Shown here: piece by piece, positions 6,858 through 61,473 of the stretch
How positions within the stretch are numbered: position 1 is the first letter of the stretch
Layout: every line of letters begins with the position of its first letter
NCBI RefSeq assembly: GCF_036417845.1
Contig: NC_089981.1
Coordinates: 19,860,001 to 19,924,000, forward strand
DNA from: Apteryx mantelli
Lineage: Eukaryota; Chordata; Aves; Apterygiformes; Apterygidae
DNA: 64,000 nucleotides
Direction: 5' to 3'
Notes under the pieces: generated by a model
What the model saw: only the letters and a program-made list of their open reading frames with translations
The model's database searches: none
Told to the model about the DNA's origin: nothing
Program-made: the position numbers and the translations under genes

Positions 6858-7164
6858 TGTGTGCAGATCCACAGCATCACCATCTCCAGCTCATAAACTC
6901 ACTTTTTGCCGTTTTGCACAGTGGCAATATATCTATGAGAGTGTGGGGGACAGACTAACTGGACGAGAAGCTTGTTCTTCAGACAAGAAAGATGTAGCTG
7001 TGTCAGTGGGCACAATCAGTCTGAGAGCTGGCTAATTAATTCTCCAGTCCTAATCTATGAGGTTTCAAACAGTTTTGGAAGCAGCAGATCTCAGAAACAT
7101 GCATGAAACATTCTCTTTCCAAAGAAGAAAAACTAAGGAAAACCATATAAAATGAGAATGCCTT

Positions 7165-8100
7165 TCAGAAGTACACTTTCCTCCTGATAATATTGATTGT
7201 GGCATGCTTCACCTCCTTGTTCCTCAAACTGTAAATCAAGGGATTCAGCATGGGGATTATAATGCTATAAAAGATGGATGAAATTTTCTTGCTCTCCATT
7301 GAGTTCATTGAACTGGGTTGCATGTAATTGAAAGCAGCAGATACGTAGAAGATGGTGATGGCTGCTAGGTGGGAGGCACAGGTGGAACAGGCTTTGCGCC
7401 TGCCTTCAGCAGAGTTCATCCTCATGATGGTCACCGCAATGCGGGCATAGGAGGCGATGATGAGCAGGATGGTGGTGGTCATGTTGAAGCCCACAAACAC
7501 AAACATCACAACCTCGTTGAGCCATGTGTCAGTGGAGGAGAGAACAAGCAATGGGGGCCCATCACAGTAGAAGTTATTGATGACGTGAGGGCCACAGAAG
7601 GAGAGCTGGAGCAAGCCACTCGTGTGTATGATGGCATTCAGCAGCCCTGCAAGGTAGGACCCGGCAACCAGGCACGTGCAGAGTCCAGGAGACATGACGA
7701 CCCCGTAGAGCAGGGGGCTGCAGATGGCCACGTAGCGGTCATACGCCATGGCAGCCAGAAGGTAGATCTCAGACGTGGCAAAAACACCATAGAAGTTTAA
7801 CTGCATGAGGCAGCCAGCAAAAGAAATGGCTCTGTGTTTTTCTGAAAGGTCCAACAGCATTTTGGGGCTGATAGTGCAGGAATAGCAAATGTCTAAGAAG
7901 GACAAGTTACTGAGGAAAAAGTACATGGGGGTGTGGAGCTGGGGGCTGACCCTGACCAGCACGATGATGCCGAGGTTTCCCACTAGGGTCAGCATGTAGG
8001 TGCCCAGGAAGAGGGCGAAGAGGACGGGCTTCAGGTGTGGGTGATCTGTGAGTCCTGCGAGGGTGAAGTGGGTCACCCTGGTGCAGTTCTCATCCACCAT
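7165..8100 (-). CDS. Olfactory receptor, class II, intact frame, copy A (311 aa)
   Basis: Seven-transmembrane odorant receptor expected in the plasma membrane of olfactory neurons, signalling through a Golf-type G protein. The frame is complete. Visible: N-glycosylation sequon at N5, GN at 41-42 in TM1, LHTPMYFFLS at 55-64, disulfide cysteine C97, MAYDRYVAIC at 118-127, EC2 cysteines C169 and C179, SY at 217-218 in TM5, KACSTCASHL at 236-245, PMLNPLIYSLRN at 283-294. Length is normal for vertebrate ORs. The third conserved EC2 cysteine (usually in LSCSD) is replaced by Ser (LSSTD, about 189). The start is fixed by the sequon spacing and by an acceptor-like TCTCTCTGCAG ending 18 bases upstream of the ATG. 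It resembles the OR5/8/9 families rather than the bird-expanded OR14 group; the family call is from memory. It differs from copy B by one residue (I248 against M248). Confidence 0.95.
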   Translation of the reverse strand: MVDENCTRVTHFTLAGLTDHPHLKPVLFALFLGTYMLTLVGNLGIIVLVRVSPQLHTPMYFFLSNLSFLDICYSCTISPKMLLDLSEKHRAISFAGCLMQLNFYGVFATSEIYLLAAMAYDRYVAICSPLLYGVVMSPGLCTCLVAGSYLAGLLNAIIHTSGLLQLSFCGPHVINNFYCDGPPLLVLSSTDTWLNEVVMFVFVGFNMTTTILLIIASYARIAVTIMRMNSAEGRRKACSTCASHLAAITIFYVSAAFNYMQPSSMNSMESKKISSIFYSIIIPMLNPLIYSLRNKEVKHATINIIRRKVYF

Positions 8101-16059: not shown

Positions 16060-16672
16060 ATGGTAGAAAACTGCACAGAAGCAATAGAGTTCATTCTTGA
16101 GGGGTTTTCAGACTGCCTGGAACTGCAGATTCCCCTTCTCTTGGTTTTCCTGGTGAGCTACGTCATCACATTAGTGGGGAATCTCGGGATGATCTTTCTA
16201 ATTGGGGTTGACCCTCAACTTCACACCCCCACGTACTTCTTCCTCAGTCACCTGTCCCTTGTAGACCTCTGCTGCTCCTCCGTGGTCACCCCCCAGGTGC
16301 TGGCCAATTTCTTTGCTCAGCAGAAAGCCATTTCACTTCTGCAGTGAGCCACACACATGTGGTTCTTCAGCCTCTTTGTGCCTACCAAGTGTCACCTCCT
16401 GGCAGCGATGGCCTAGGACCGCTACGTGGCCATTTCCAAACCTCTGCTCTACGCTGTCATTATGTACCCAAAATCTGTGCCCGGCTGATAGCTGGCCCTT
16501 ACACGGTGGGGATCGTGAATGCCGTGACACATAGCAGCCTTGCTTCCAGCTACGCTTCTGCAAGCCCAGTGTGATCAATCACTTCTTCTGCGATATCCCC
16601 GCAGTGATCCCCTGCTCCTCCTCACACACACGCACCAACAAGCTGGTGCTTTTCACCCTGTCCTTCGTACTT
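16060..16672 (+). pseudogene. Class II olfactory receptor pseudogene, copy B
   Basis: Copy B of the broken receptor at 1781, with the same acceptor-like tract just upstream, the same stop after 95 codons and the same loss of TM6-TM7. It has NLGM where A and D have NLRM in TM1, so it retains the more usual residue. It lacks the 11-base duplication, reading directly DRYVAISKP in the displaced frame. That makes it the less decayed member of the three. VINHFFCDIP lies at 16570-16599. Confidence 0.9.
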
Positions 16673-21026: not shown

Positions 21027-21962
21027 TCAGAAGTACACTTTCCTCCTGATAATATTGATTGTGGCATGCTTCACCTCCTTGTTCCTCAAACTGTAAATCA
21101 AGGGATTCAGCATGGGGATTATAATGCTATAAAAGATGGATGAAATTTTCTTGCTCTCCATTGAGTTCATTGAACTGGGTTGCATGTAATTGAAAGCAGC
21201 AGATACGTAGAAGATGGTCATGGCTGCTAGATGGGAGGCACAGGTGGAACAGGCTTTGCGCCTGCCTTCAGCAGAGTTCATCCTCATGATGGTCACCGCA
21301 ATGCGGGCATAGGAGGCGATGATGAGCAGGATGGTGGTGGTCATGTTGAAGCCCACAAACACAAACATCACAACCTCGTTGAGCCATGTGTCAGTGGAGG
21401 AGAGAACAAGCAATGGGGGCCCATCACAGTAGAAGTTATTGATGACGTGAGGGCCACAGAAGGAGAGCTGGAGCAAGCCACTCGTGTGTATGATGGCATT
21501 CAGCAGCCCTGCAAGGTAGGACCCGGCAACCAGGCACGTGCAGAGTCCAGGAGACATGACGACCCCGTAGAGCAGGGGGCTGCAGATGGCCACGTAGCGG
21601 TCATACGCCATGGCAGCCAGAAGGTAGATCTCAGACGTGGCAAAAACACCATAGAAGTTTAACTGCATGAGGCAGCCAGCAAAAGAAATGGCTCTGTGTT
21701 TTTCTGAAAGGTCCAACAGCATTTTGGGGCTGATAGTGCAGGAATAGCAAATGTCTAAGAAGGACAAGTTACTGAGGAAAAAGTACATGGGGGTGTGGAG
21801 CTGGGGGCTGACCCTGACCAGCACGATGATGCCGAGGTTTCCCACTAGGGTCAGCATGTAGGTGCCCAGGAAGAGGGCGAAGAGGACGGGCTTCAGGTGT
21901 GGGTGATCTGTGAGTCCTGCGAGGGTGAAGTGGGTCACCCTGGTGCAGTTCTCATCCACCAT
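21027..21962 (-). CDS. Olfactory receptor, class II, intact frame, copy B (311 aa)
   Basis: Tandem copy of the receptor at 7165-8100, at offset 13862. All OR hallmarks are kept: sequon N5, GN at 41-42, LHTPMYFFLS, MAYDRYVAIC, KACSTCASHL and PMLNPLIYSLRN. The only amino-acid change is M248 for I248, just after KACSTCASHL. The flanks are equally similar, including the acceptor-like tract upstream of the ATG. This points to very recent duplication or gene conversion rather than selection on the coding part alone. It also lacks the third EC2 cysteine. Both copies could be expressed independently, each with its own upstream region. Confidence 0.95.
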   Translation of the reverse strand: MVDENCTRVTHFTLAGLTDHPHLKPVLFALFLGTYMLTLVGNLGIIVLVRVSPQLHTPMYFFLSNLSFLDICYSCTISPKMLLDLSEKHRAISFAGCLMQLNFYGVFATSEIYLLAAMAYDRYVAICSPLLYGVVMSPGLCTCLVAGSYLAGLLNAIIHTSGLLQLSFCGPHVINNFYCDGPPLLVLSSTDTWLNEVVMFVFVGFNMTTTILLIIASYARIAVTIMRMNSAEGRRKACSTCASHLAAMTIFYVSAAFNYMQPSSMNSMESKKISSIFYSIIIPMLNPLIYSLRNKEVKHATINIIRRKVYF

Positions 21963-27425: not shown

Positions 27426-28187
27426 TCGTAGGTGATCACTGAATCAGAGTAATCACGGACTCGGGTGGGAAGGGACCTCAGGAGGCCTCTAGTCCAACCT
27501 CCTCCTTAATGCAGGTTTTCAACACTGAATTCACATCACATTGCACAGGGCCTTCTCCAGTCAAGGCTTGAAAAATCTCCAAGGATGGAGGCTGCACAGC
27601 CTTGCTGGACCCCCTTCCAGTGCCCGACTGTCCTCTGGGGGGAAAAACAGTCTTCTATCCAGTCAAACCTCCCCATTTTGGTTTATGACCACTGTCCCTC
27701 ATCTCTCTGCTGTGCACCTCAGCAGAGTCTGGCTTTGGCTTCTTGATAACCGGCGTGTAGGCACTGTGAGGCTGCTCTTAGGTCCTCCCAAGGCCTTCTG
27801 GTCTCCAGGCTAAGTAAGCACTTTCCCCTCAGCTTCTTCTCACAGGTGGTCCCCAACTGTCTTGGTGGTCCCTGCTAGACTTGCTCGGGTTTGTTGACAC
27901 CATTCTTGCTGTGGGGGCCAAACCTGGAGGGGGTACCCAAACATGGCCTAAGAAGTGCCAAGTAAAGGGGGATAAGCACAGCCCTCCACATCCTGGCTGT
28001 GCTCCTGTGCACGTGGCCCAGGATGCTCTAGGCTCCACTCGCTGCCAGGGCACACTGCTGGCTCAGGCTTGCCTGCCAGGACTGCAGGTCTCCCAGCAGA
28101 GATGCTCCCCAGCACACACCAGTCTGTCACAGGCACAGCACTTATCATTTCTCCCCGCTGAAGTTCATGAGGTTCCTGGTGGCCCAT
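27426..28187 (-). mobile_element. Older CR1 LINE fragment (-), copy B, cut by duplication edge
   Basis: Same element as 12896-13700. It stops at about 28187, just after GGTGGCCCATTCCCATT, where sequence with no counterpart in A or C begins. The duplication breakpoint therefore lies inside this CR1 near its RT-encoding part. Confidence 0.88.
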
Positions 28188-28301
28188 TCCCATTCCTGGC
28201 TGGGCCTGGCCTGTGGGAGAATGCCTAGACTGGGCAGTGCAGTCCCAGAACAGGTTTGCCTGCCCTGCTCAGGACCAACGCTACCTTCTTCCCCCTGCCA
28301 G

Positions 28302-31300
28302 AGAGATGAGAAAGGCCCTGCATCCCCAGCGTGCCTGGATCTTCCACCAGCTGACAGTGCTGCTCAGCAGCGAGGAGCCCTGCCACGAGATCCCTGCCAT
28401 GGCTTTCCTCATCGAGGTGAGCCCAGTGCCAAGCGGGGCCTCTCTGGGGTGCCACAAACCACTCTACTCTCTTGTGCCCGCAGCTTTGGGGTGCTTGGCA
28501 GTGAATGGAGCGGGGCAGTGGGTGCATCCCAGCAGTACCCTTGGCCTCAGCACATTTCTGGTGGGATAACTCTTGTCACCACCTGTATTTCATGCCTCCT
28601 TTGTGCCTGCTTTCTCTCCTCGACTGCTCCTCAGAGGCATGAGAACAAGAGGCTGCGGCTGGCTGCGAGGCCCAGAGGAGCAAGCGAGCGTTCTGCACGG
28701 TGTGCCCTGAAGCACAGGGCAGGGCCACAGGGGCTCTCACAACCGCTGCTGCCTTCAGGCTGGCCCTTGTCTGGGCCTGGTGGCCTTGCCCCGAGCTCTT
28801 GCTTTGATCCGGCACTGCCTGCTATGGCAAGTGCTGCCAGCTTCATCAGCCTGTCGCTGCTGTGTGTGTTTCAGCTGCTGGTCTGTGCTGACCTTAGCGG
28901 AGAGGACGAGCGTGTCCTGAACCTCTTCCAGAGATACCTGCAAAGCCAGAGCACAGTCATGCGTGGGCTGGTGTTGAGAGGCCTCCTCATACTGTGTGGG
29001 AGACCCGAGACGGTGAGTGGGGACAGCCGGCTGAAGCCATGCCAGCGGCCTGGGGCTGGGCAGGGAGTGCTGGGTAACACAGTAGCTTGCACTTTGCTGC
29101 GAATCAGGAGCGGTGATAGCTACCCTCTTCCTCTGCCCCCAAGTCCTTTGGGGCAGAGCCTTGGCTGTGCTGCACAAGGAGAACAGCACCGGTGCCACAG
29201 AGGGACCTTGGCCCTGCACCAAGCAAGCCAGCTCCAAACCACCTCAGTCGCAGGAACGTTGTGCTCAATGCAGTTGCGTTTCACACAGGCAAGGAAAATG
29301 CAGGCCCTGTTGCCAGTCATCATGGAGTGCCTGCAGGATGCAAACAGGGACATCGGCGCACAGGCCCTAGTTGTGCTCAGCAACATGCTCCATCTCCTGG
29401 AGGACGGGCAGAGGGCCAGCCCCATCGCTCTGCAGCTGGCTCAGCAGCTCCTGCCACTCTTGGATGACGTAAGGCTGGGGGCAGAGCCGGGGGTCCTGCT
29501 GGCGGGCCTGTGTGTGCTATGTATGGCATCAGGGCTCTGGGCTGTTTGTCTCCACGTGTGCCCACTAGCATGGGAATTTGTGCCTCCCTCTGCAGAAGGG
29601 GTCCTGGCTGCTGTCAGGAAACTTTTTGCCCTGCAGGTTTCGGACCACTGCCCTGTCCTCCTCCTGCAGCACAGCCCTGAATAGCCTGGCTTCTTCAGCA
29701 GTGGCCTGGGGCAGAGCCCATCCCTGGCATGGCCCATGCTCATGCCCAGCCCAGCAGATGCACGGTCCATAATGACAACTTCCCTTCAGCCCCTTGCAGG
29801 CCACCACAACTTCTCCCTCCTCCCTTCCCATCCCCGGGGCATCCCAGCCCCCGTGACAGGCACTGCGTGCCCAGCCCAGGCCCTGGGCAGTCCAGCTGCA
29901 GGCTGAGGCTTGCTCTCAGAGCCCAGGCAGCTCTGCCAGGCATGACCGCGGGCTCTCAGCACTCACTGGGGCAGGCACATGAGGCTTTGAGCAGGGGGAT
30001 GCGCCCACGGGCCAAGGTGGAGGGCCAGCCCCGTCTGCTCCAGCCACATGGACCCCCTTGCTCATCGTGGGTTTGCAGCAGCCAGTGCTGAGCTCCTCTC
30101 CTCTTCCTTCCCACCAGGAGTCCAGCTGTGTGCGAAAGCTCTCCATCCAGCTCCTCAAAGATGCGATGGAGATGGTAGTGGGCACTGCAAGGCAGCAGAT
30201 GAAGCAGCAAGTGCAGAGGAGCCTGCTTCTCCTGTTCTTCCACTTGCATGACCAGGTCCAGAGCGTGGCCCAGGTGTGCCTTTCTAACCTGACCGGTCAT
30301 CTGGGGAGGGCAATGCTGACCCCCTTTGGGTGGGCCTGAGCATCAGGAGCAAAGGCTGCTGGCAATCAGACCCTTTGAATGTGTGTCACCTTGAGGCCCA
30401 ACCTCCTGAGTGCCAGAGGAGGGTGCAGAGACCCCCTCCCTGTCTACACCAAGCCCACCGCTGCCTTCGTCCTCCTGCCATGCCTCCTCCTGCACACATG
30501 GATGGAGAGGTGGGGTCCCCTCACACCCCCCACTCCCTCCATACAGCCCTCCACCAGCACAGGCCACAGGAAGAGACCCTGCAGGCGCAGAGCTAGCAGG
30601 GGCTGGAAAGCCAGGCACGGACATTTCCCAGCCCTGCACCCCCGGTTCCGGGCTCTGGAGTCTGGGCACAAGGGAGCAGCAACCAAGCAGGATGGGGAGC
30701 CCAGCACTATGCTGGGAATGCCCAGGGGAGGCGCTTCTGCCTGAGGCCTGCACCGGCGTCTCTGTGACCGCAGCACTTCAGCCTCCTCCTGCCCTTGGCT
30801 ACAGCTCAGCAGCTCTTAGGGATCTCTGTCCTGCTGCCCTGGCAGCACAAGGGGCCTCAGATGGTGGTTGCCTCACATCTCTGCCTGGGGCATTGGAACC
30901 CAGGGCCACGCTTGGTCCCCAGCTGCGGCATCTTCCCATCAGGGGCCAAGAAAGGCTCCGAGCCTTGCCACAAGGAGGGAGGCGCAAGGTCTCCTCCCCT
31001 GGGCCGTGCTGGCATCTCCTAGCCTCTGCTGCTGTGCAGGCCTCTCAGGAAGCCCTTCTCAGGGCTGCGAAGTTGCTGAAATGGGAGCAGCTCAGGCACC
31101 TGACCGAGACATCGCAGACGTGGAGGATCGGCGAGTGCCTGGAAAGGACAGCCCCAAAGTGCCCAGCACCCAGCCTCCACAAGGCCTGCCCCCCTCCAGG
31201 CCCAATGTGTGGGGCAGGCAGCTGTGCCCCTACCCACAGCTGCAACCACAGCCCCCAGCCTGGAGCTTCGCACATGCTCCCTTTCCTCAAGGACACTGCC

Positions 31301-32641
31301 CCGGCAGGCTGTTCTCCAGGCTCCTCTCCCCTTGCTCACCCCGGCATGCTAAAGCAGCCCCTGGCCCAGCTGACACTTCAGCATCCCTGGGGAGCACCTT
31401 GCCCTCTGCTCCCTCCAAACCTCAGCACTACATGGCTCGTGGCTGGGCAAATGTCCCAGCAGGGGCAGGAAGGGCAGACTGGTCCTGCGGGCAGGGACTG
31501 GCCAGCTGAGTGCGGAGGGTCTGCACCAACCCTGTGCCCTTGTGCTCTCTCCAGCTGGCGGGAGACAGGAGCAGGATAGAGGAATACCTGCGCCAGGGCC
31601 TGCTCTACTTGGAGAGCCCACAGGAGCCCTTGCAAGAGGCAGCTGTGAGGTTTCTTGGTGAGCCACACAACCGCTGGGGTCCCTCTCTATCCCAGGGCAG
31701 CTTGGTCCCAGTCCTGGCTGTTGCACTGGCAGTGACAACCAGCCCTGTGGCTGTCAGAGCCCCCACTGCCCTGTGCAGGGCCTGGGTGCCCGGCAGCTCC
31801 ATGTCACCCTCTCCCATCCCTGTCCTTGCATGTGCTGTTAGTGGGAGCCTTCTTCAGGCCCTTACAGCCTCCTTGAGTGCTATGCTCTGGAGACCACCCT
31901 GGAGTCAGCCCTGCCTGTGGGGAGCAGGGTGCGGGGCCAGGCCGGCAGGGCTGGCAGGAGCTGTGCTGCTGGGGCTGCGCTGGGCAGCGGCATTTGTGAC
32001 AGGCTGTGTGTGCCTAGGGCTCCTCGGGCAGCACATGAGGGACCAGAGCGAGGAGAAGCTGCAGGACATCTTTGAGGGTGAGTGAGGGCCATCAGGCTGT
32101 CAGCCAGGGCTGGCAGGGAGGAAGAAAGACCCTGGGCAGCGAGCGCCAATCCCCATCCCCAGGCAAGGAGGCTTCTGCTCCCCGTGTGCAGCAGGGGCCA
32201 TGTGGGGAGAGGAGAGAGAGAGATTTCAGGGGCCTTTGGGACATTCCTGGCCAGACACGTGCAGCTGATCCATTTGTCCCCCCTGCTCTCTCCTGGCCCT
32301 GGGAAGAGCTGGGTGGGACTGGCCCTGGCAGGAGGCCAGGGCATGCCTGAGGTCTGCACAGATACAGGTGGTTGATCTCTGCTCTCGTCCTTCCTATTTC
32401 AGCCCTTCAGCCCTTGCAGAGGACAAGCATGCCCTCAATCCGTTCCCTGGTGGTCCAAACCATCCTGATCCTGAGAGCTTCAAGGACAAAGTCTCCATAC
32501 AGAGCCAACCAAGGAACCGTGGCCTCCGGGATCTGGAGCATGTGGAAGAGGTGGCAGCGTTCTCTGGCAGAAAACTGCATTTGCTGCCGGAGCTCTGCTC
32601 AGTCCTCATCTCGGGGTGCTCTGCACACAGGGGCCACCTGA
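28302..32641 (+). CDS. Maestro/MROH-type HEAT-repeat gene, 5'-truncated, possibly a pseudogene
   Basis: Eight exons read on the + strand with AG/GT borders: 28302-28416, 28875-29012, 29289-29468, 30118-30273, 31040-31141, 31555-31657, 32018-32077, 32403-32641 (stop). Phases fit throughout and give about 365 residues. The order of motifs (IFHQLTVLLSSEEPCHEIPA, FQRYLQSQSTVMRGLVLRG, SPIALQLAQQLLPLLDD, LFFHLHDQVQSVAQ, RIGECL, EEYLRQGLLYLESPQEPLQE) is the one I know from avian maestro heat-like repeat proteins, helical HEAT-type scaffolds of unclear biochemical role. The usual upstream exons are absent; duplication copy B ends 114 bases before the first exon. An in-frame ATG exists at 28306, but this looks like an internal exon. 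The donor after exon 5 reads GAAAGG where GTAAGG would be expected, and the exon 4 donor (GTGTGC) is weak. I think it is a gene fragment, perhaps no longer functional. Confidence 0.82.
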
Positions 32642-34938: not shown

Positions 34939-35130
34939 ATGGCAAAGGAAAACAGCACCATGGCGCTAGATTTCATTTTCCTAGCATTCTCGGATCACCC
35001 AGAGCTGCAGGCCCCCCTCTTTGTGGTGTTGCTCATGATCTACATTCTCACTCTGGTGGGAAAGCTTGGAATGATTGTGTTGATAAGGATTCACTCTCAA
35101 CTTCATACCCCCATATGCTTCTGCCTCAAT
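34939..35130 (+). pseudogene. Olfactory receptor N-terminal fragment
   Basis: An OR start in single-copy sequence: ATG at 34939, sequon N5-[14 protein letters not shown], a TM1 with LVGKLGM (K replaces the near-invariant N of GN) and [11 protein letters not shown] where LHTPMYFFL is expected. Similarity stops at about residue 64; the frame continues with unrelated residues to a stop at 35184. A strong acceptor (TTTTTCTCTACTCTCATAG, ending 34917) precedes the ATG, as in a real OR coding exon. Everything after TM1 and loop 1 is gone. It is not part of the repeated unit and is a separate, dead OR locus. Confidence 0.85.
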
Positions 35131-35189
35131 CTATTCTTATTTGCGTTATTCTTCCATTACTGCATCTGGATGTTTACTTACTAATAAAA

Positions 35190-47119: not shown

Positions 47120-50100
47120 ACAGTGAAGTTTAAAACAGTTTGGGTGCTCAGTTCTGCTGCCCACATATAGTCAGCTGCCTGTTTTGCCTCCCCCCCAGGT
47201 GCACTTTACAAATCCGCCTCTGTTTGGAGTCACATCTGCCAGCCCTCCGTGTGTCTCAGGCCTAGTATGATGTCCCAAGTTGCTTAAATAGGCCTAAGCT
47301 TAGGCAACCAAATCAAGCCATGGCTGTCCCCAACAGAAGTCTCTGAATATGAACCGGGGTCTAAACTGCTCTTACAGTCAGTAAAGATCTAGTAGACACA
47401 GCAACTCATCACACCAAACGTAGGTGCGTGTTTCAGGGTGAGCCGAACCGCTCTCTAGACTGTAGACTTGGCTGCGCTGACCAGCTCCAAGTTGGCTGCA
47501 ATGGGAACTTGGAGAAGTACAACCTGTGTCGATACCTAATTACAGAAACAGAGATTAAGTGAAATTTTCCCCACCCTCTTGTCTCTTGCCCTGCCACATT
47601 CATAGCAGGGAGAATGGTGTTCAACTGCTTGGTTTCAATTTCTCAAATTAGCACTGCTCAATGGGTTCAATAGTCTAGCCTCAAAGTCTTAGAAATGTGC
47701 TCCACTAACTCATGGCATGAGCCAGTGTAATCACAGTGGTCGATATGCACTACCAACTTACTGTATACTAGGAAGTTTCAGTCATACCCTTCTGAACTGT
47801 TTGTGCAAGTCTTTGAGAAGTTATTATTGTTATTCTGAAAAGGGGCACAATGTGCACACAGCAGAATCGCATGAAATCTGGGCCCTCACTGTTTCTGAGA
47901 CAATTACTCAGTTTTTTAGAGGCACCTTACGACAGTCCTAATGAGACCATCTGAGATCTGGAACTCAGAAACATCTGAAGAAAGCTGTCCCTTGCGGCTT
48001 AAAAGAAACAAATACTGTCATGATGCTTTTCATCCACAAAATTTCCACTGTCTGTGAAGAACTATCAAGTTTACAGGTACATTCCGAGCTTCCAGGTAAT
48101 AGGAATAAGTCCTGTAGTCCTCTGTGTGCGAAGGCTGAAAAAGAACAAGTTCTGTGTAGCTTAGCTGGAAGACAAGGAAGGGAAAGGTATTATTTCCAGT
48201 GATGCAAGAACATTAAAAAGCAAGCTATGACTACTTGTTCTTGCTGCAGTGTCTGACGCCAGTTGAAAAATGGCACTTTTTTAATGGTAGAGTAAGTAAA
48301 CAAACAAGGAGGGAAAAGAAGAGAAAGCGTTCTTTCTGTTCAAGACGGGCTGATTTGCAGTGCCTTTTTGGAATCAAGTAAGGGATCCATTGAGTGGCTA
48401 GCAGGTCTTTTCCAGCTCCAGTAATTTTTCAGTGCTTGGGTTTAGTATGTACACATGATTTGTCCTCATATCTATGTGCCTATAAGTTTTTACCTTTTCA
48501 CAGACAATTCTGATAAGTCTAGTAGCAATTTATTTCTGGCTTATTGATTCCCAGTATAGATATAAGCCCTGCTGGCATGAGACTTTGAAAAGCATCATCC
48601 AGGAGATTTCCTCTTTGCTTTTATGTCCTGCCAACCAGTTCCTTGCATGAGTATAACCCATGTTCTACTGGGCTGGTTTTGCTTGGTCATCTTTTGCCAT
48701 GCACACAAAGACTCTGCAAGCAGGTTACACACAGCTTAAGAGTAGACAGCAAGTATTTATTAGCTAAGGCACACACAAGATGATAGCTCAGACCAGCAGG
48801 CTACTGAGGTAGGCATTGCTGTGCTCCTGCCCCATCCCACTGAGGCTGCTGGCCAGGTGGGCATCAGCCAGGCTGGGAAGATGCAGCATCTTTCACCCCT
48901 GGGAAGGGGCTGAGCCTTCATCCTCCTGGCAACTCTTCTGATTTTCCCCTCAAGGTTTTGTAACATTTCAGGTCAGTATTCTTCCTCTTGGGCCCCTGAG
49001 TTAGCATCACCATCTCCACAATTTGACTGCTGTCCGTGTTTTCGTTCATGCGGCTTTAGCTTATGGACTCTTACAGCTCTTCAGCAGTGTTTTTGAGGAG
49101 GGCAAAGAGAAGGTCTCGCAGCCTTCCTGCAGGACCTTGGGTCCACGCTCAGAGCCAGGCAGTGGGCTATGAGCAACCCAAGCAACATCTGCTCTTGCCT
49201 TACACAACATAATACTTAACCAGGCTGCAGAGAGATGTTTGTGCAGGGCTGGTCACTCCCTTCAGTGGCAAACCTCACTTTGGAACAGCAATGAGATTCA
49301 AAGTCAAGGTCTAGAGGGCTTGAAGTACAAACGGTGCCACCTCCTCTGCCTGGGCCAGGGAGAGGAAGGTGTCTGGGAAGGTAACATGCCTGCACATGGC
49401 TATGTATATGTCCTGTCAGGGATGGCCTTTTTCAGAAAACATGTGATGGGGGTGGCCACATTGACACCATGTGTAGGTGGGAGGTAACCTGACCAACAAC
49501 ATTGCAGGACTCCATGCAGAGGCGCTTCCCAGCCATCGCCGCTTTGTCTCCAGCAGCATTTGTAGGACCCTCACAGCAGAAGACATGACTGATTCCCTCT
49601 TTCCTCCTCTCCCCCCATCACCCAGAACACACCTCCTGACTCTCTACAGCCTGGTCAGTGTCACCGCAGAATACACCCATACCTCTCCCTTCCCCAGGCA
49701 CCAACCATTACAAAGCAACCTGACGCTCACTGGAGCTATGGACAGGACAAAAGCAACAGCAGGGACAGGGGAATTTCCCTCAACACCCGGGCTGAGTGCT
49801 CAGCCCTGACCATGACGACCGAGCAGGAGGAGGAGCAGTTGGTGGGCTCATGACTCCTAGGCCGGGATTATGCACTCTTGCAATTATTGCCCAGATGAAC
49901 ATCCAGCTCAGCTCTGCGCAGAATGGACCAAAAGGGCAGTATGTGTCCTGGACCTGCATGGAGGCCCCATTCACCTTTTTTTTCCAGCTGATCGTATCAC
50001 TGCATGGCCATCGTTAGCTGGCCGCCTTCCTCCAGCAGATGGTACCTCTGCACAGGTAAAAGGGAGATTTTCTCCAGTCAGCCGCCCCCAGCACCTACGC

Positions 50101-50845
50101 GGCCTCCACCTGGATCAAGGCCAGCCATCCCCTCCCAGCACCATGCAAACCCTCCTGGGCACTTGGACCATTTTGAATAGTTCTGCCTGTGGCCTGGCTT
50201 CACAAAGCCAGCTACAGTGGGTTTCATAGCATGGTCCTGATATGCAGAGCACAGGCGAGGGCATGGCAGCAGTGCGTGCAGACAGAGGGCAGCCACGCCG
50301 AGTCTCCTGGGATGGTGCAGGACTGTGCTGGAGGGAGCAGGCCAAAATAGCACAGCCTGCCACCGACAGCAAACAGCCCCTGGCATACGCCACTGCCACG
50401 CTGAGCTCATCCTGCTGGGGTGGGAGGAAGGGTCCAAAGTTGTGCCAGGGAAGGTGTCAGACCACTTAAGCAGCCTGGGTGATCTGTGCCAGCGCTCTAG
50501 GTCCTGCCCTGGCACCTTGCTGTACTACCACATGTGTAAGCACAAGTCAGGCTGTGGCTTTTAGTTACTTGGCGGTAGCCACGTCTTTTCCAAAAGCTTA
50601 GGGGATTTTCTTCTTGGCTCTGGGAATGTGACATAGCCCAGTGTTTTCCAAAGGTGCTCGAAGAAAGGCACAGGTGCTTTGATGCCTTTCCAGGCTATTC
50701 AGCTTGGGTTACGCATTCCCTTTTGCTCTACAAGCCTGCCTGAAGGTATGTGGGCTAAGTCCGCTGTCCAACGATACCTTCTGGAAAGGAAAATACAAAC
50801 AAGCAAAGTTGTTGCTAAAAAGGATGGAGGGGGTGTTATCACCTC
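47120..50845. other. Long gene-free single-copy sequence
   Basis: Only short open frames on both strands, none with a motif I know. Base composition shifts from AT-rich (47200-48750) to GC-richer (48760-50560). No microsatellites, tRNA genes or recognised transposon ends. Confidence 0.45.
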
Positions 50846-50849
50846 ACCC

Positions 50850-51035
50850 ACAGAATGACAGAGTGGTTGAGGTTGGAAGGGACCTCTGGAGATCACCTGG
50901 TCCAACCCTGCTGCTCAAGCAGGGTCACCTAGAGCCCGTTGCCCAGGATTGTGCCTAGATGGCTTTTGAACCTCTCCAAGGAAGGAGACTGCACAACCTC
51001 TCTGGGCAACCTGTCCCAAATGCTGTTCCAGGCTG
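50850..51035 (-). mobile_element. CR1 LINE tail fragment (-)
   Basis: Reverse-complement CR1 3' end (CAGAATGACAGAGTGGTTGAGGTTGGAAGGGACC, then TCACCTAGAGCCCGTTGCCCAGG and CACAACCTCTCTGGGCAACC). It lies in single-copy sequence and is independent of the fragments in the OR units. Confidence 0.9.
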
Positions 51036-51079
51036 TTCCACCATCACTTTCAGGGCCCTGGAGAAGGAAAGAACAACTC

Positions 51080-51915
51080 TCTGTTGCTCTCCCTAATAAA
51101 TTATAGCCCACCACAGCAGTGCCATCAGACTCTCTTCCCTCTCCTCCTGGAGAGGTCCAACTTTGCAGTCCTGCCTGTGATGGAAGCTAATCGCAGGGCA
51201 GAAAAGCCTTCCTGCCACACACGGCCAACAGCTCTGGCCATCAGTGGAGAGCAGCAGTCACATCATGGGCCTTGGGCAGCTGCAACCAGCAGCACCAGTA
51301 TGACGTGTCATCTCTGATCGCTCACGTGGAGCTCAGGCTTTCCCTCTGCAAACTCCCTGCTGGTTTTTACATGCGTCTTTGAGTCCCAAAGCTGCTTCTC
51401 AGGACCAAGCGCCCCAAGTTATGTTCTCTAGGGACAGAAGGAGCAGGAGCAGGCCCACCTGGCAGCCAGAAGTTCCTTTCCTCAATGCCAGCTGCATCCT
51501 TCAGGGCTACAACAATCACCACAAAGAAATTTGGAGGCCGCATGGTTGACCCTGGAGACTAGTGGTGGCTGTGAAGTCAGGAAATAAGCTCATGTAGCAA
51601 TTCAGATGATGCATTGCATCTCCCTTACGTACTTGCTAAAGAAGGAACAGCTCCTCAGTAGTACTGATCAGTGCTTTGGGAAACAGTGTCCCTGAGCAGA
51701 AGGAGGAGGAGAAGCTACCTCCTCTTTACTTTTAGGCTGTTGAGTGAGATGTTGAGTATGAAGGTCCCCAGCCCACTGAAAAGTCACTCTGCCCTGCTCC
51801 TATGAACACTTTAGATGGGATCACAACCTGGTCACACCGGACTGAACATGGAAGATACCAAGCAAGAAATAAGACAGAGGCATGAAGGTTTTTTTAAAAA
51901 ACAAAACAACACTCA
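51080..51915. other. Gene-free sequence left of the chimeric OR
   Basis: Unlike the sequence downstream of the ORs in copies A and B (left of 7165 and 21027), so it belongs to the flank of the OR that donated the 3' end. Nothing coding is recognised. Confidence 0.5.
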
Positions 51916-51918
51916 TCT

Positions 51919-52854
51919 TCATGGGCACATTTTCCTCCTCAGAAGTCTCCTCAGAGCAGCCTTCACCTCCTTGTTTCTCAGGCTGTAAATCAGAGGATTT
52001 GAAAAAGGGATCACTACCACAGAGAAAACTGAAGCCCACTTATCTTCATCAACTGCTGAACTAGAGCTGGGCCGTAGGTACATGAGGACAAAACTCACAT
52101 AGAGCATCATGACAGTTGCTAGGTGGGAGGCACAGGTGGAGCAGGCTTTGCGCCTGCCTTCAGCAGAGCGCATCCTCACGATGGTCACCGCAATGCGGGT
52201 GTAGGAGGCAACGATGAGCAGGTTGGTGGTGGTCAGGTTGAAGCCCACAAACACAAACATCACAACCTCGTTGAGCCACGTGTCAGTGGAGGAGAGAACA
52301 AACAATGCAGGCCCATCACAGTAGAAGTCATTGATGACGTGAGGACCACAGAAGGAGAGCTGGAGCAAGGTGCTCGTGTGTATGATGGCATTCAGCATCC
52401 CCGCAAGGTAAGACCCGGTGACCAGGCACGTGCAGAGTCCAGGAGACATGACGACCCCGTAGAGCAGGGGGCTGCAGATGGCCACGTAGCGGTCATACGC
52501 CATGGCAGCCAGAAGGTAGACCTCAGACGTGCCAAAAACAACGTAGAAGTAAAATTGCATGAGGCAGCCAGCAAAAGAAATGGCTCTGTGTTTTTCTGAA
52601 AGGTCCAACAGCATTTTGGGGCTGATAGTGCAGGAATAGCAAATGTCTAAGAAGGACAAGTTACTGAGGAAAAAGTACATGGGGGTGTGGAGCTGGGGGC
52701 TGACCCTGACCAGCACGATGATGCCGAGGTTTCCCACTAGGGTCAGTATGTAGGTGCCCAGGAAGAGGGCGAAGAGGACAGGCTTCAGGCGTGGGTGCTC
52801 TGTGAGTCCTGCAAGGGTGAAGTGGGTCACCCTGGTGCAGTTCTCATCCGCCAT
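51919..52854 (-). CDS. Olfactory receptor, class II, chimeric C-terminal end (311 aa)
   Basis: Intact receptor frame of 311 codons. An in-frame upstream extension to 52956 is rejected as start: the ATG at 52854 matches the paralogues, gives sequon N5, and lies just after an acceptor-like CTCTCTGCAG. Residues 1-246 are close to the receptors at 7165 and 21027, with scattered changes concentrated around TM3 (FYFYVVFGTSEVY for LNFYGVFATSEIY) and TM5. From residue 247 onward only motif positions agree. The end reads YVSFVLMYLRPSS and PFSNPLIYSLRN and finishes RRKMCP instead of RRKVYF. The DNA downstream is also unrelated. The edge of duplication copy C therefore runs through this gene, and the 3' end comes from another OR. 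The frame remains open and the PxxNPLIY motif is kept, so it may be functional. Confidence 0.94.
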   Translation of the reverse strand: MADENCTRVTHFTLAGLTEHPRLKPVLFALFLGTYILTLVGNLGIIVLVRVSPQLHTPMYFFLSNLSFLDICYSCTISPKMLLDLSEKHRAISFAGCLMQFYFYVVFGTSEVYLLAAMAYDRYVAICSPLLYGVVMSPGLCTCLVTGSYLAGMLNAIIHTSTLLQLSFCGPHVINDFYCDGPALFVLSSTDTWLNEVVMFVFVGFNLTTTNLLIVASYTRIAVTIVRMRSAEGRRKACSTCASHLATVMMLYVSFVLMYLRPSSSSAVDEDKWASVFSVVVIPFSNPLIYSLRNKEVKAALRRLLRRKMCP

Positions 52855-54020
52855 TGGTACTGTCCTTAGTCGCTGCAGAGAGACATGGAAGGAAGAGGGT
52901 GAAAACAATGCTGGATGCAATTTCCACTTCAAAATATCAATGTGAAAAGATGACACTGCCTTTGAGGTTAAATGGAAAAGGAAAAAAGTAAAAGAATTGC
53001 TGATTATTCTCTTGCAGTGACAGTAACCTCTTTGGAAGAAGAAAAAAACGCAGCAGTTCTTAGAAATTCTTTTCCATAAGCATCCAACAAAGAAAGCAGG
53101 GTGTCACAACCTGTTCTGTGACCCCTGATTCCCTTCCAGGCACAAATCCAGTATCTACATGCGCATTTTGGGGGGCTCATGAGATGTTTCATAAATATAA
53201 TAACGACAGCTGGGGATCATGCAACCTTGTTCATTTTTCCTATATTTTGATGCAGCAGCTACAGTGCCTAAGCAGTTCCCTCTCAAGGCTCCAGGTAATA
53301 CAAGGTCCTATCACAAAGCGGAAGGGCATCTTGGAACTTAAAGTTCTGGGGAAAGGTGGCTGTGCTTTCAGGGTGGAAACTGGCCTCTCTTTATCTCTCT
53401 ACAGACTAGGCAGAGTCTTTCCTTCTGCTCTTGTTTCCTTCATTAGAAGTGAGATTCATTGGACTACCACACTATAGACAAGCTGGAGCCAAAGTGGCCC
53501 TCTGGCTTTCCTGGCGGTGGAGAGGATTGGCTCTTCTGACCTGTCATGAACTATTTCTCTTAGATTAAGAAGCCTTCTCCTCTGACGGTAGCTTGACTAT
53601 GGGAGAGGTTTAAATGAAATGCTCGGGCTTTGAGGCTTGCTCGGTAGATGTCGAAAAGGAGACCAAGGCCAGCTGCCTCCCTGCACGCCATCGTGCACAC
53701 CAAACAACTCCTTCAGCTAGACGCTTTCACTTTTAACCCTTTGACGCAAGACCTTTTGACAAAGGTTGCCAAGGTGGGTAAATCTTAAGGCAAATCTCCC
53801 CTTAATCATTTCCTTTCCAGTTCAGGGGTTTGGTCTCTTTTGCACAGCTGATGTGAAAGTGCTCAAGCAGACATCTAAAATATCTGTTGTTACGTTAGAA
53901 GTCCAGCACCAACTGTCATTAAATAATATAGATGTGATGAAACATATCTAATTAGAAACTTCTGTGCTCAGTCAAGTGAGACTACTCTCAGCTTAATTAC
54001 AGAAGGGCATACTACTTCTC

Positions 54021-60848: not shown

Positions 60849-61473
60849 ATGGTAGAAAACTGCACAGAAGCAATAGAGTTCATTCTTGAGGGGTTTTCAG
60901 ACTGCCTGGAACTGCAGATTCCCCTTCTCTTGGTTTTCCTGGTGAGCTACGTCATCACATTAGTGGGGAATCTCAGGATGATCTTTCTAATTGGGGTTGA
61001 CCCTCAACTTCACACCCCCACGTACTTCTTCCTCAGTCACCTGTCCCTTGTAGACCTCTGCTGCTCCTCTGTGGTCACCCCCCAGGTGCTGGCCAATTTC
61101 TTTGCTCAGCAGAAAGCCATTTCACTTCTGCAGTGAGCCACACACATGTGGTTCTTCAGCCTCTTTGTGCCTACCGAGTGTCACCTCCTGGCAGCAATGG
61201 CCTAGGACCACTATGTGGCCAATACGTGGCCATTTCCAAACCGCTGCTCTACGCTGTCATCATGTACCCAAAATCTGTGCCCGGCTGATAGCTGGCCCTT
61301 ACATGGTGGGGATCGTGAATGCCGTGACACATAGCAGCCTTGCTTCCAGCTACGCTTCTGCAAGCCCAGTGTGATCAATCACTTCTTCTGCGATATCCCC
61401 ACAGTGATCCCCTGCTCCTCCTCACACACACGCACCAACAAGCTGGTGCTTTTCACCCTGTCCTTCGTACTTA
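60849..61473 (+). pseudogene. Class II olfactory receptor pseudogene, copy D
   Basis: Copy D of the broken receptor at 1781. It shares with copy A the stop after 95 codons, the R for G change in TM1 (NLRM) and the 11-base tandem duplication. The only substitution I noticed against A over the open part is a silent C to T at 61070. Splice acceptor, N-glycosylation site and missing TM6-TM7 are as in A. Confidence 0.9.

Follow-up and report, generated by a model that had tools for sequence, protein, structure and literature searches.

How does an OR gene come to carry a tail unlike that of its neighbours whilst its reading frame stays open? The question is raised by gene C (51919..52854), one of three intact OR genes in the window, by which is meant the whole 64,000-nucleotide stretch of DNA under analysis (C4:19860001-19924000, from a searched genome of 1.5 Gb). 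All three genes lie on the minus strand, the other two being gene A (7165..8100) and gene B (21027..21962), the coding sequence of which is 2 nt off that of A. Trees of whole genes are the usual means of dating and classifying ORs; here the histories of head and tail can differ with the frame open.

Gene C has an unbroken frame of 311 codons, running from 52854 to 51919 within a longer ORF in the frame list, and in this respect the first-pass annotation, which had described the gene as a chimera with its frame intact, was correct. The Pfam family 7tm_4 (PF13853) matches the product with an E value of 1.1e-43, and that of gene A with 1.6e-45, over residues 34-307, so that both a full-length 7tm_4 domain and an unbroken frame of about 310 codons are present, as in class II ORs. 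The best solved relative of gene C is consensus OR5 (7.5e-116).

The break at codon 246

Gene C is made of two parts with different affinities. The head, codons 1-246 (52117..52854), is common to A, B and the rest of the family, and the C-type tail, codons 247-311 plus the stop codon (51919..52116), is found in six genes of the genome, all of which have the family head. In gene A the head lies at 7363-8100 and the A-type tail at 7165-7362. The heads of A and C are identical at 701 of 738 nucleotides and 225 of 246 amino acids, as against 110 of 195 nucleotides and 29 of 65 amino acids for the tails, a contrast with a Fisher p of 4e-37. When the window is compared with itself, DNA similarity ends at 52117, and to the right of this position C tracks the repeat unit in pieces of 93-99% identity; the annotation had assigned codons 1-246 and the DNA upstream to the repeated unit, and this assignment stands.

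The edge is sharp. The last exact block common to A and C is 24 bp long (cds 715-738, window 52117-52140, minus strand) and lies within the TM6 motif KACSTCASHLA. A one-breakpoint likelihood scan across 12 family genes, from which A_winB was left out, has its maximum at cds 738, which is codon 246, with a gain of 158.8 lnL; 12 column shuffles scored at three breakpoints gave gains of at most 44.2. Both results agree with the junction at KACSTCASHL that the annotation had proposed.

A difference between head and tail in this direction is uncommon among ORs of the same genome. In 45 pairs formed by ten other ORs, similarity in the tail (codons 246-307) exceeds that in the head (codons 96-240) by 9.7 points on average, and the opposite trend is found in five pairs, the lowest at -11 points; the figure for A versus C is -41 points. 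For A and C, dS reaches about 1.5 in the tail as against 0.08 in the head. Tails are steady within each class, at 89-100% amino acid identity to the query, and when 27 distinct ORs were scanned the 30 most strongly discordant pairs were all (30/30) between the two tail classes of the family. Judged by these sequence comparisons, the exchange of tails at TM6 between C-type and A-tail genes is real.

The annotation had also supposed that the exchange took place at a motif common to ORs in general. In keeping with this, the longest exact DNA match to C (15-21 bp) falls at the break, at cds 714-735, in four of nine other ORs; in the other five it falls elsewhere. Mean identity in 30-bp windows is highest at NPLIYSLRN (0.88), followed by the TM6 motif (0.85) and codons 54-57 (0.84). 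The position of the break would thus fit an exchange guided by short identity, TM6 not being the sole conserved stretch. Both TM6 and TM7 contribute to the odorant pocket, and the receptors of A/B and C are therefore alike in most of their length and differ in this part of the pocket.

Genes with either tail and their flanking DNA

The family comprises 18 genes, all located at C4:19.80-20.11 Mb (about 300 kb), with 12 carrying the A tail and six the C tail, and frames are open in 15 of the 18. A search with the C tail and its 3' flank (best 40 of 3847 candidates scored) returned six places: gene C of the window, two C copies at 19851531 and 20008666, each at least 99.9% identical to window C, and three copies, here called C', at 19963883, 20043530 and 20107483. 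The DNA of the C' tails is about 95% identical to that of C, and at the amino acid level C and C' agree at 92-94% in the head and 89% in the tail. The family head is present in all six genes. The equivalent search with the A tail and its 3' flank gave twelve family places, and the A-tail protein search returned the same twelve. Ten of these have a full-length head, including one (L043) with a frameshift; L050 (C4:19925076) begins at about codon 43-47, and L049 (C4:20072275) is cut at about codon 225 and retains only some 22 head codons. By eye, L049 and L050 have a common upstream stretch, which lies beside the cut in L049 and farther off in L050.

Since both halves of C group with the three C' genes, gene C is a member of an established class rather than a one-off chimera. 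The annotation had seen it as a single product at the moving edge of a duplication, a picture that does not survive the discovery of the same tail and 3' flank at five more genes with the same head. The 12 and six natural copies also offer a ready comparison of the role of the tail.

The nearest neighbours of the two parts differ. In the C-head search (best 150 of 9133 candidates), ranks 1-17 are taken up entirely by family genes (two partial), and the closest non-family head, at C4:19254422, has 58% amino acid identity to C. In the A-tail search (best 150 of 5627) the 12 family genes are followed by 30 other loci before the first C' is reached, the C' genes standing at ranks 43-45 and the C genes at 48-50. 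In the C-tail search (best 150 of 5503) the six family genes are followed by 15 other loci, with the first A-tail gene at rank 22; the intervening loci in both tail searches include near-copies of each other and fragments. The annotation's expectation of separate neighbours for head and tail is therefore upheld when C is set against the A-tail genes, for which the ranks differ, but not when it is set against C', with which both halves group, an outcome that the annotation itself had named as one that would refute it.

In the head trees the family heads are united in a single clade (100/100 in one tree), to which OR 19254422 is sister (95/93 in another), whereas in the tail tree the A tails pair with OR 19369095 (92/88) and the C tails are placed elsewhere. 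The outside ORs in these trees were drawn from the tail searches and are not a random sample; three broken genes (L043, L049, L050) and two near-identical copies (L010, L011) are omitted. An AU test on 62 tail columns, for which A_winB, A_19822, A_19808, Cp_20044, OG_L053 and OG_L081 were omitted as well, gave p 0.195 for A and C tails as one clade, which is accordingly not rejected. Given so few columns, the case for discordance of head and tail is not built on the tail tree alone but on the contrast in identity, the ranks in the searches and the flanking DNA; what the annotation observed is confirmed, and its interpretation is partly supported. As to which type is the derived chimera, the tail-tree tests on 62 columns are non-significant. 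The heads of the C-tail genes group apart (96/89 in one tree, 91/91 in another), and so head exchange between the tail types has not erased the classes.

The flanking DNA switches together with the coding part. The 3' flank of C, termed F1 (49110..51918), is unlike that of A and B, and its portion 49110-51714 recurs at all six C-tail genes, a count that disregards a CR1-like repeat of about 170 bp which F1 holds and which is present at many places. Next to the gene, a 189-bp segment (51715..51903) is found in the three C copies, the three C' copies having 9 other bases instead. The 3' flank of A, termed F2 (6862..7164), accompanies the A tail at 12 places of the genome with 93-100% identity. 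Apart from the CR1-like repeat, which is in opposite orientation, BLAST aligns no part of the non-coding 3' flank of A with that of C, and the annotation's statement that both protein and downstream DNA are unlike A and B from codon 247 is thus borne out. A loose local alignment of the two flanks scores 18.5, with 100 shuffles giving a mean of 12.9 and a maximum of 17.0.

Two features by which a fusion OR is recognised are therefore found here, namely two parts of the frame with different nearest paralogues, joined inside identical DNA, and flanking DNA that changes with the coding part. A third, the identification of the parental genes, is lacking, neither parent being among the scored loci of the genome. 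No locus among those scored joins either tail to another OR head. The annotation had predicted that the donor would share the sequence to the left of 51919; the CR1-like repeat aside, every place found to carry this sequence was a gene with the family head. The top non-family DNA match to the C tail (best 40 of 409 candidates scored) is a pseudogene fragment at C4:19265070-19265300, with 77% identity over 113 bases, and it was rejected as donor because its translation, judged by eye, is not close to that of C. OR 19369095 and OR 19351645 were rejected at 64% amino acid identity only. The tail donor may be lost, diverged past recognition or missing from the assembly.

The shared part of the family has a second edge, on its 5' side. 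The upstream sequence of C beyond this edge, termed R1 (52897..53600, of which 52900-53600 was searched), occurs at 13 places, comprising the six C-tail genes and seven A-tail genes (A, B and five more). In three other A-tail genes, at 19959475, 20039104 and 20103049, the resemblance to A, B and C ends 42 bp before the start codon, and their own upstream sequence, R2, was found at three places only in the genome search. In gene C the 42 bp before the ATG (52855..52896, minus strand) lead up to a pyrimidine tract with AG; this pyrimidine-rich stretch, which ends in CAG, looks by eye like a candidate acceptor of the coding exon. Because the edge is common to six genes, its reading as an effect of C alone was rejected. 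Each R2 gene has a C' gene of like orientation about 5.2 kb to its right, and across these three intervals the R2 and C' genes have a common island of 786-790 bp with 92-94% identity, both sides of which are unlike except for the CR1-like repeat of about 170 bp. The two truncated genes aside, three of the four flank/tail combinations are present: R1 with C tail, R1 with A tail and R2 with A tail.

Within the island, 75 two-state informative sites in 14 genes were compared, and close sites are more compatible than permuted ones (p 0.0005, 2000 permutations). The heads would appear to recombine among themselves in a mosaic exchange, and site incompatibility can stem partly from repeated mutation. 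By eye, A/B-type genes alternate R2-like and C-like states at diagnostic head sites. Replacement changes in the family heads are frequent in TM3, TM4, ECL2 and TM5 (domain limits are rough), and codons 37-89 are invariant across 13 aligned family proteins.

Origin and direction of the exchange

The two tails are best explained, with high probability, by an old homology-guided exchange between two class II ORs at the TM6 motif. The exchange would have been resolved at KACSTCASHLA, placing one tail, made up of the upper half of TM6, ECL3, TM7, the C-terminus and the 3' flank, beside the head (TM1-TM5) of the other receptor. Such an event would be a recombination, either a crossover or a one-sided conversion, probably aided by the short identity at the motif. 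As C and C' are alike in both halves, the exchange that separated the two tails should be older than the split between them, which now differ by about 5% of their nucleotides. Both forms would then have been multiplied by duplications, tandem and of higher order, whilst the heads presumably went on swapping patches.

The two directions of the exchange are nearly even in probability, and no scored locus pairs either tail with another OR head. On the sequence comparisons, a foreign C tail on a head that originally had the A tail appears slightly the better supposition. Among the ten nearest outside heads, the tails of nine are among the matches listed in the tail searches, and by bit score seven of these favour the A tail (one of the seven not being listed for the C tail) and two, 19350925 and 19245109, the C tail. 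The tails of the two nearest outside heads score 72.1 and 77.2 bits with A versus 64.4 and 63.1 with C. Percent identity opposes the bit scores and slightly favours the C tail, the mean of tail minus head identity over ten outside ORs being +3.5 points for C against -0.3 for A. Moreover, the tail of OR 19254422, which was read in part only (641 bases), is near neither type (31 to 33 of 62 residues), and with the A tail placed instead beside that of OR 19369095, the A tail could be foreign too.

The reverse direction is a variant of the same explanation and a reasonable contender, held somewhat short of even. In it gene C, with R1, family head and C tail, is parental and the A/B type is the product of a crossover that put the tail and 3' flank of another gene onto the head and 5' flank of C, on the logic that unequal crossing inside two ORs leaves hybrid copies in the interior and a parental copy at the edge. 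Seven A-tail genes do have the R1 of C on one side and F2 at the other, three A-tail genes have R2, and the R1-A-tail form would likewise be produced by a deletion crossover, within the common head, of an R2 gene with the C' gene beside it; the slightly higher identity of the C tail to outside ORs points the same way. However, two single steps from an R1-A-tail ancestor suffice to explain the three combinations without an R2 by C' crossover, so that A/B need not be such recombinants. In addition, the head states of A/B at the diagnostic sites switch repeatedly, by eye, and not once, and the majority of the outside tails score higher with the A tail. Gene conversion without crossover is a variant of mode that is compatible with the exchange at TM6 and is itself rather unlikely. 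It holds that two old, unlike ORs were homogenised over their 5' four fifths by a tract of about 786 bp reaching from the intron acceptor to TM6, which would suit both the R2/C' island with its unlike sides and the patchwork within the heads. Yet A/B and C also have a common 5' flank over kilobases, which such a tract leaves unexplained, and a duplication or crossover would be needed as well.

The two readings that do away with an exchange are highly improbable and were rejected. If the tail had merely evolved faster in one lineage, one would welcome the facts that the TM6-TM7 differences are mainly replacement changes, that the tails of C and C' differ by nine replacements and one silent change where the head of C'20108 differs by 15 of each kind (Fisher p 0.03), and that the loose flank alignment is slightly above its shuffles. 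Against a neutral expectation of 76%, however, the replacement excess in the C/C' tails is not significant (p 0.27), and rapid evolution of the tail does not sit with non-coding 3' flanks that are themselves unlike, with tails that are stable within each class, with the tail dS or with the 40 of 45 control pairs that trend in the opposite direction. A misassembly that put two receptors together at a conserved motif is suggested by the position of C among nearly identical repeats of about 59 kb, very recent in origin, in which assemblers may slip; but the same junction is repeated in the three C' copies, which are about 5% diverged and lie in another neighbourhood, and a random join would seldom preserve both the frame and the residue register.

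Beyond the exchange at TM6, the two edges of the shared part allow a more speculative reading, which is doubtful at present: the regulatory sequence on the 5' side, the head (TM1-TM5) and the tail (TM6-TM7) might be exchangeable modules with fixed joints at the intron acceptor and the TM6 motif.

Known fusion receptors and other features of the window

Fusion ORs formed by recombination are already known, and what this case adds is the genomic junction with the flank on either side of it, the numbers of copies and, possibly, a second joint at the intron acceptor. Human OR8U1 is described as a fusion of OR8U8 and OR8U9 by non-allelic homologous recombination (PMC2570968). As in the present case, two tandem ORs have been fused inside the coding exon within identical DNA. 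The identical stretch in OR8U1 is 119 bp long (bp 472-590), in contrast to 24 bp between A and C, at TM6. Moreover, both parents of OR8U1 are known and both alleles occur in people according to that text, whereas neither parent was found among the loci scored here, and the present event is older and has been amplified to 6 and 12 copies. The OR51A2-OR51A4 fusion gene (PMC2978733; table note of PMC2570968) similarly arose by a deletion that fused neighbouring ORs inside their coding regions. Its junction lies near the 5' end of the frame, and the coding region of the product is that of one parent, unlike here.

A breakpoint at about the same place in TM6 has been reported from another bird. For the gamma-c ORs of Cory's shearwater, a single GARD breakpoint is given at alignment position 246, in TM6, with a table footnote that says 264 (PMC6969042). 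That breakpoint is a statistical one in an alignment of gamma-c genes, and the present genes are classed as class II ORs only; as far as the excerpted text of that study goes, a genomic junction, flanks and paired classes are described only here. A TM6 junction with known flanks thus provides a concrete genomic case for a breakpoint inferred statistically elsewhere. For the clustering of bird gamma-c ORs by species, concerted evolution is one of two explanations offered (PMC2758906). Should the TM6 joint be in repeated use in bird ORs, a possibility hinted at by the shearwater breakpoint, changing part of the pocket in one step would often give rise to new receptors.

The window as a whole (1-64000) belongs to a higher-order repeat of about 59.07 kb, traced over C4:19807798-19912116, in which OR A and OR B are followed by a 24-kb unlike block and OR C. 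The offset at which the copies recur is +59,064 for the A-tail genes (19807798 and 19821660) and +59,069 for the C gene (19851531). Each repeat unit also has a second, broken OR on the opposite strand with in-frame stops (1787-2386, 16066-16654 and 60855-61454, plus strand), and the 24-kb block contains a 5' fragment of another OR of about 75 codons (34939-35163, plus strand). Open frames at 28167-32085 (plus strand) may belong to a HEAT-repeat gene, presumably a maestro-like one; the sole Pfam match within 28167-29684 is a weak one to CAND1-like repeats, below the cut-off at E 0.0044.
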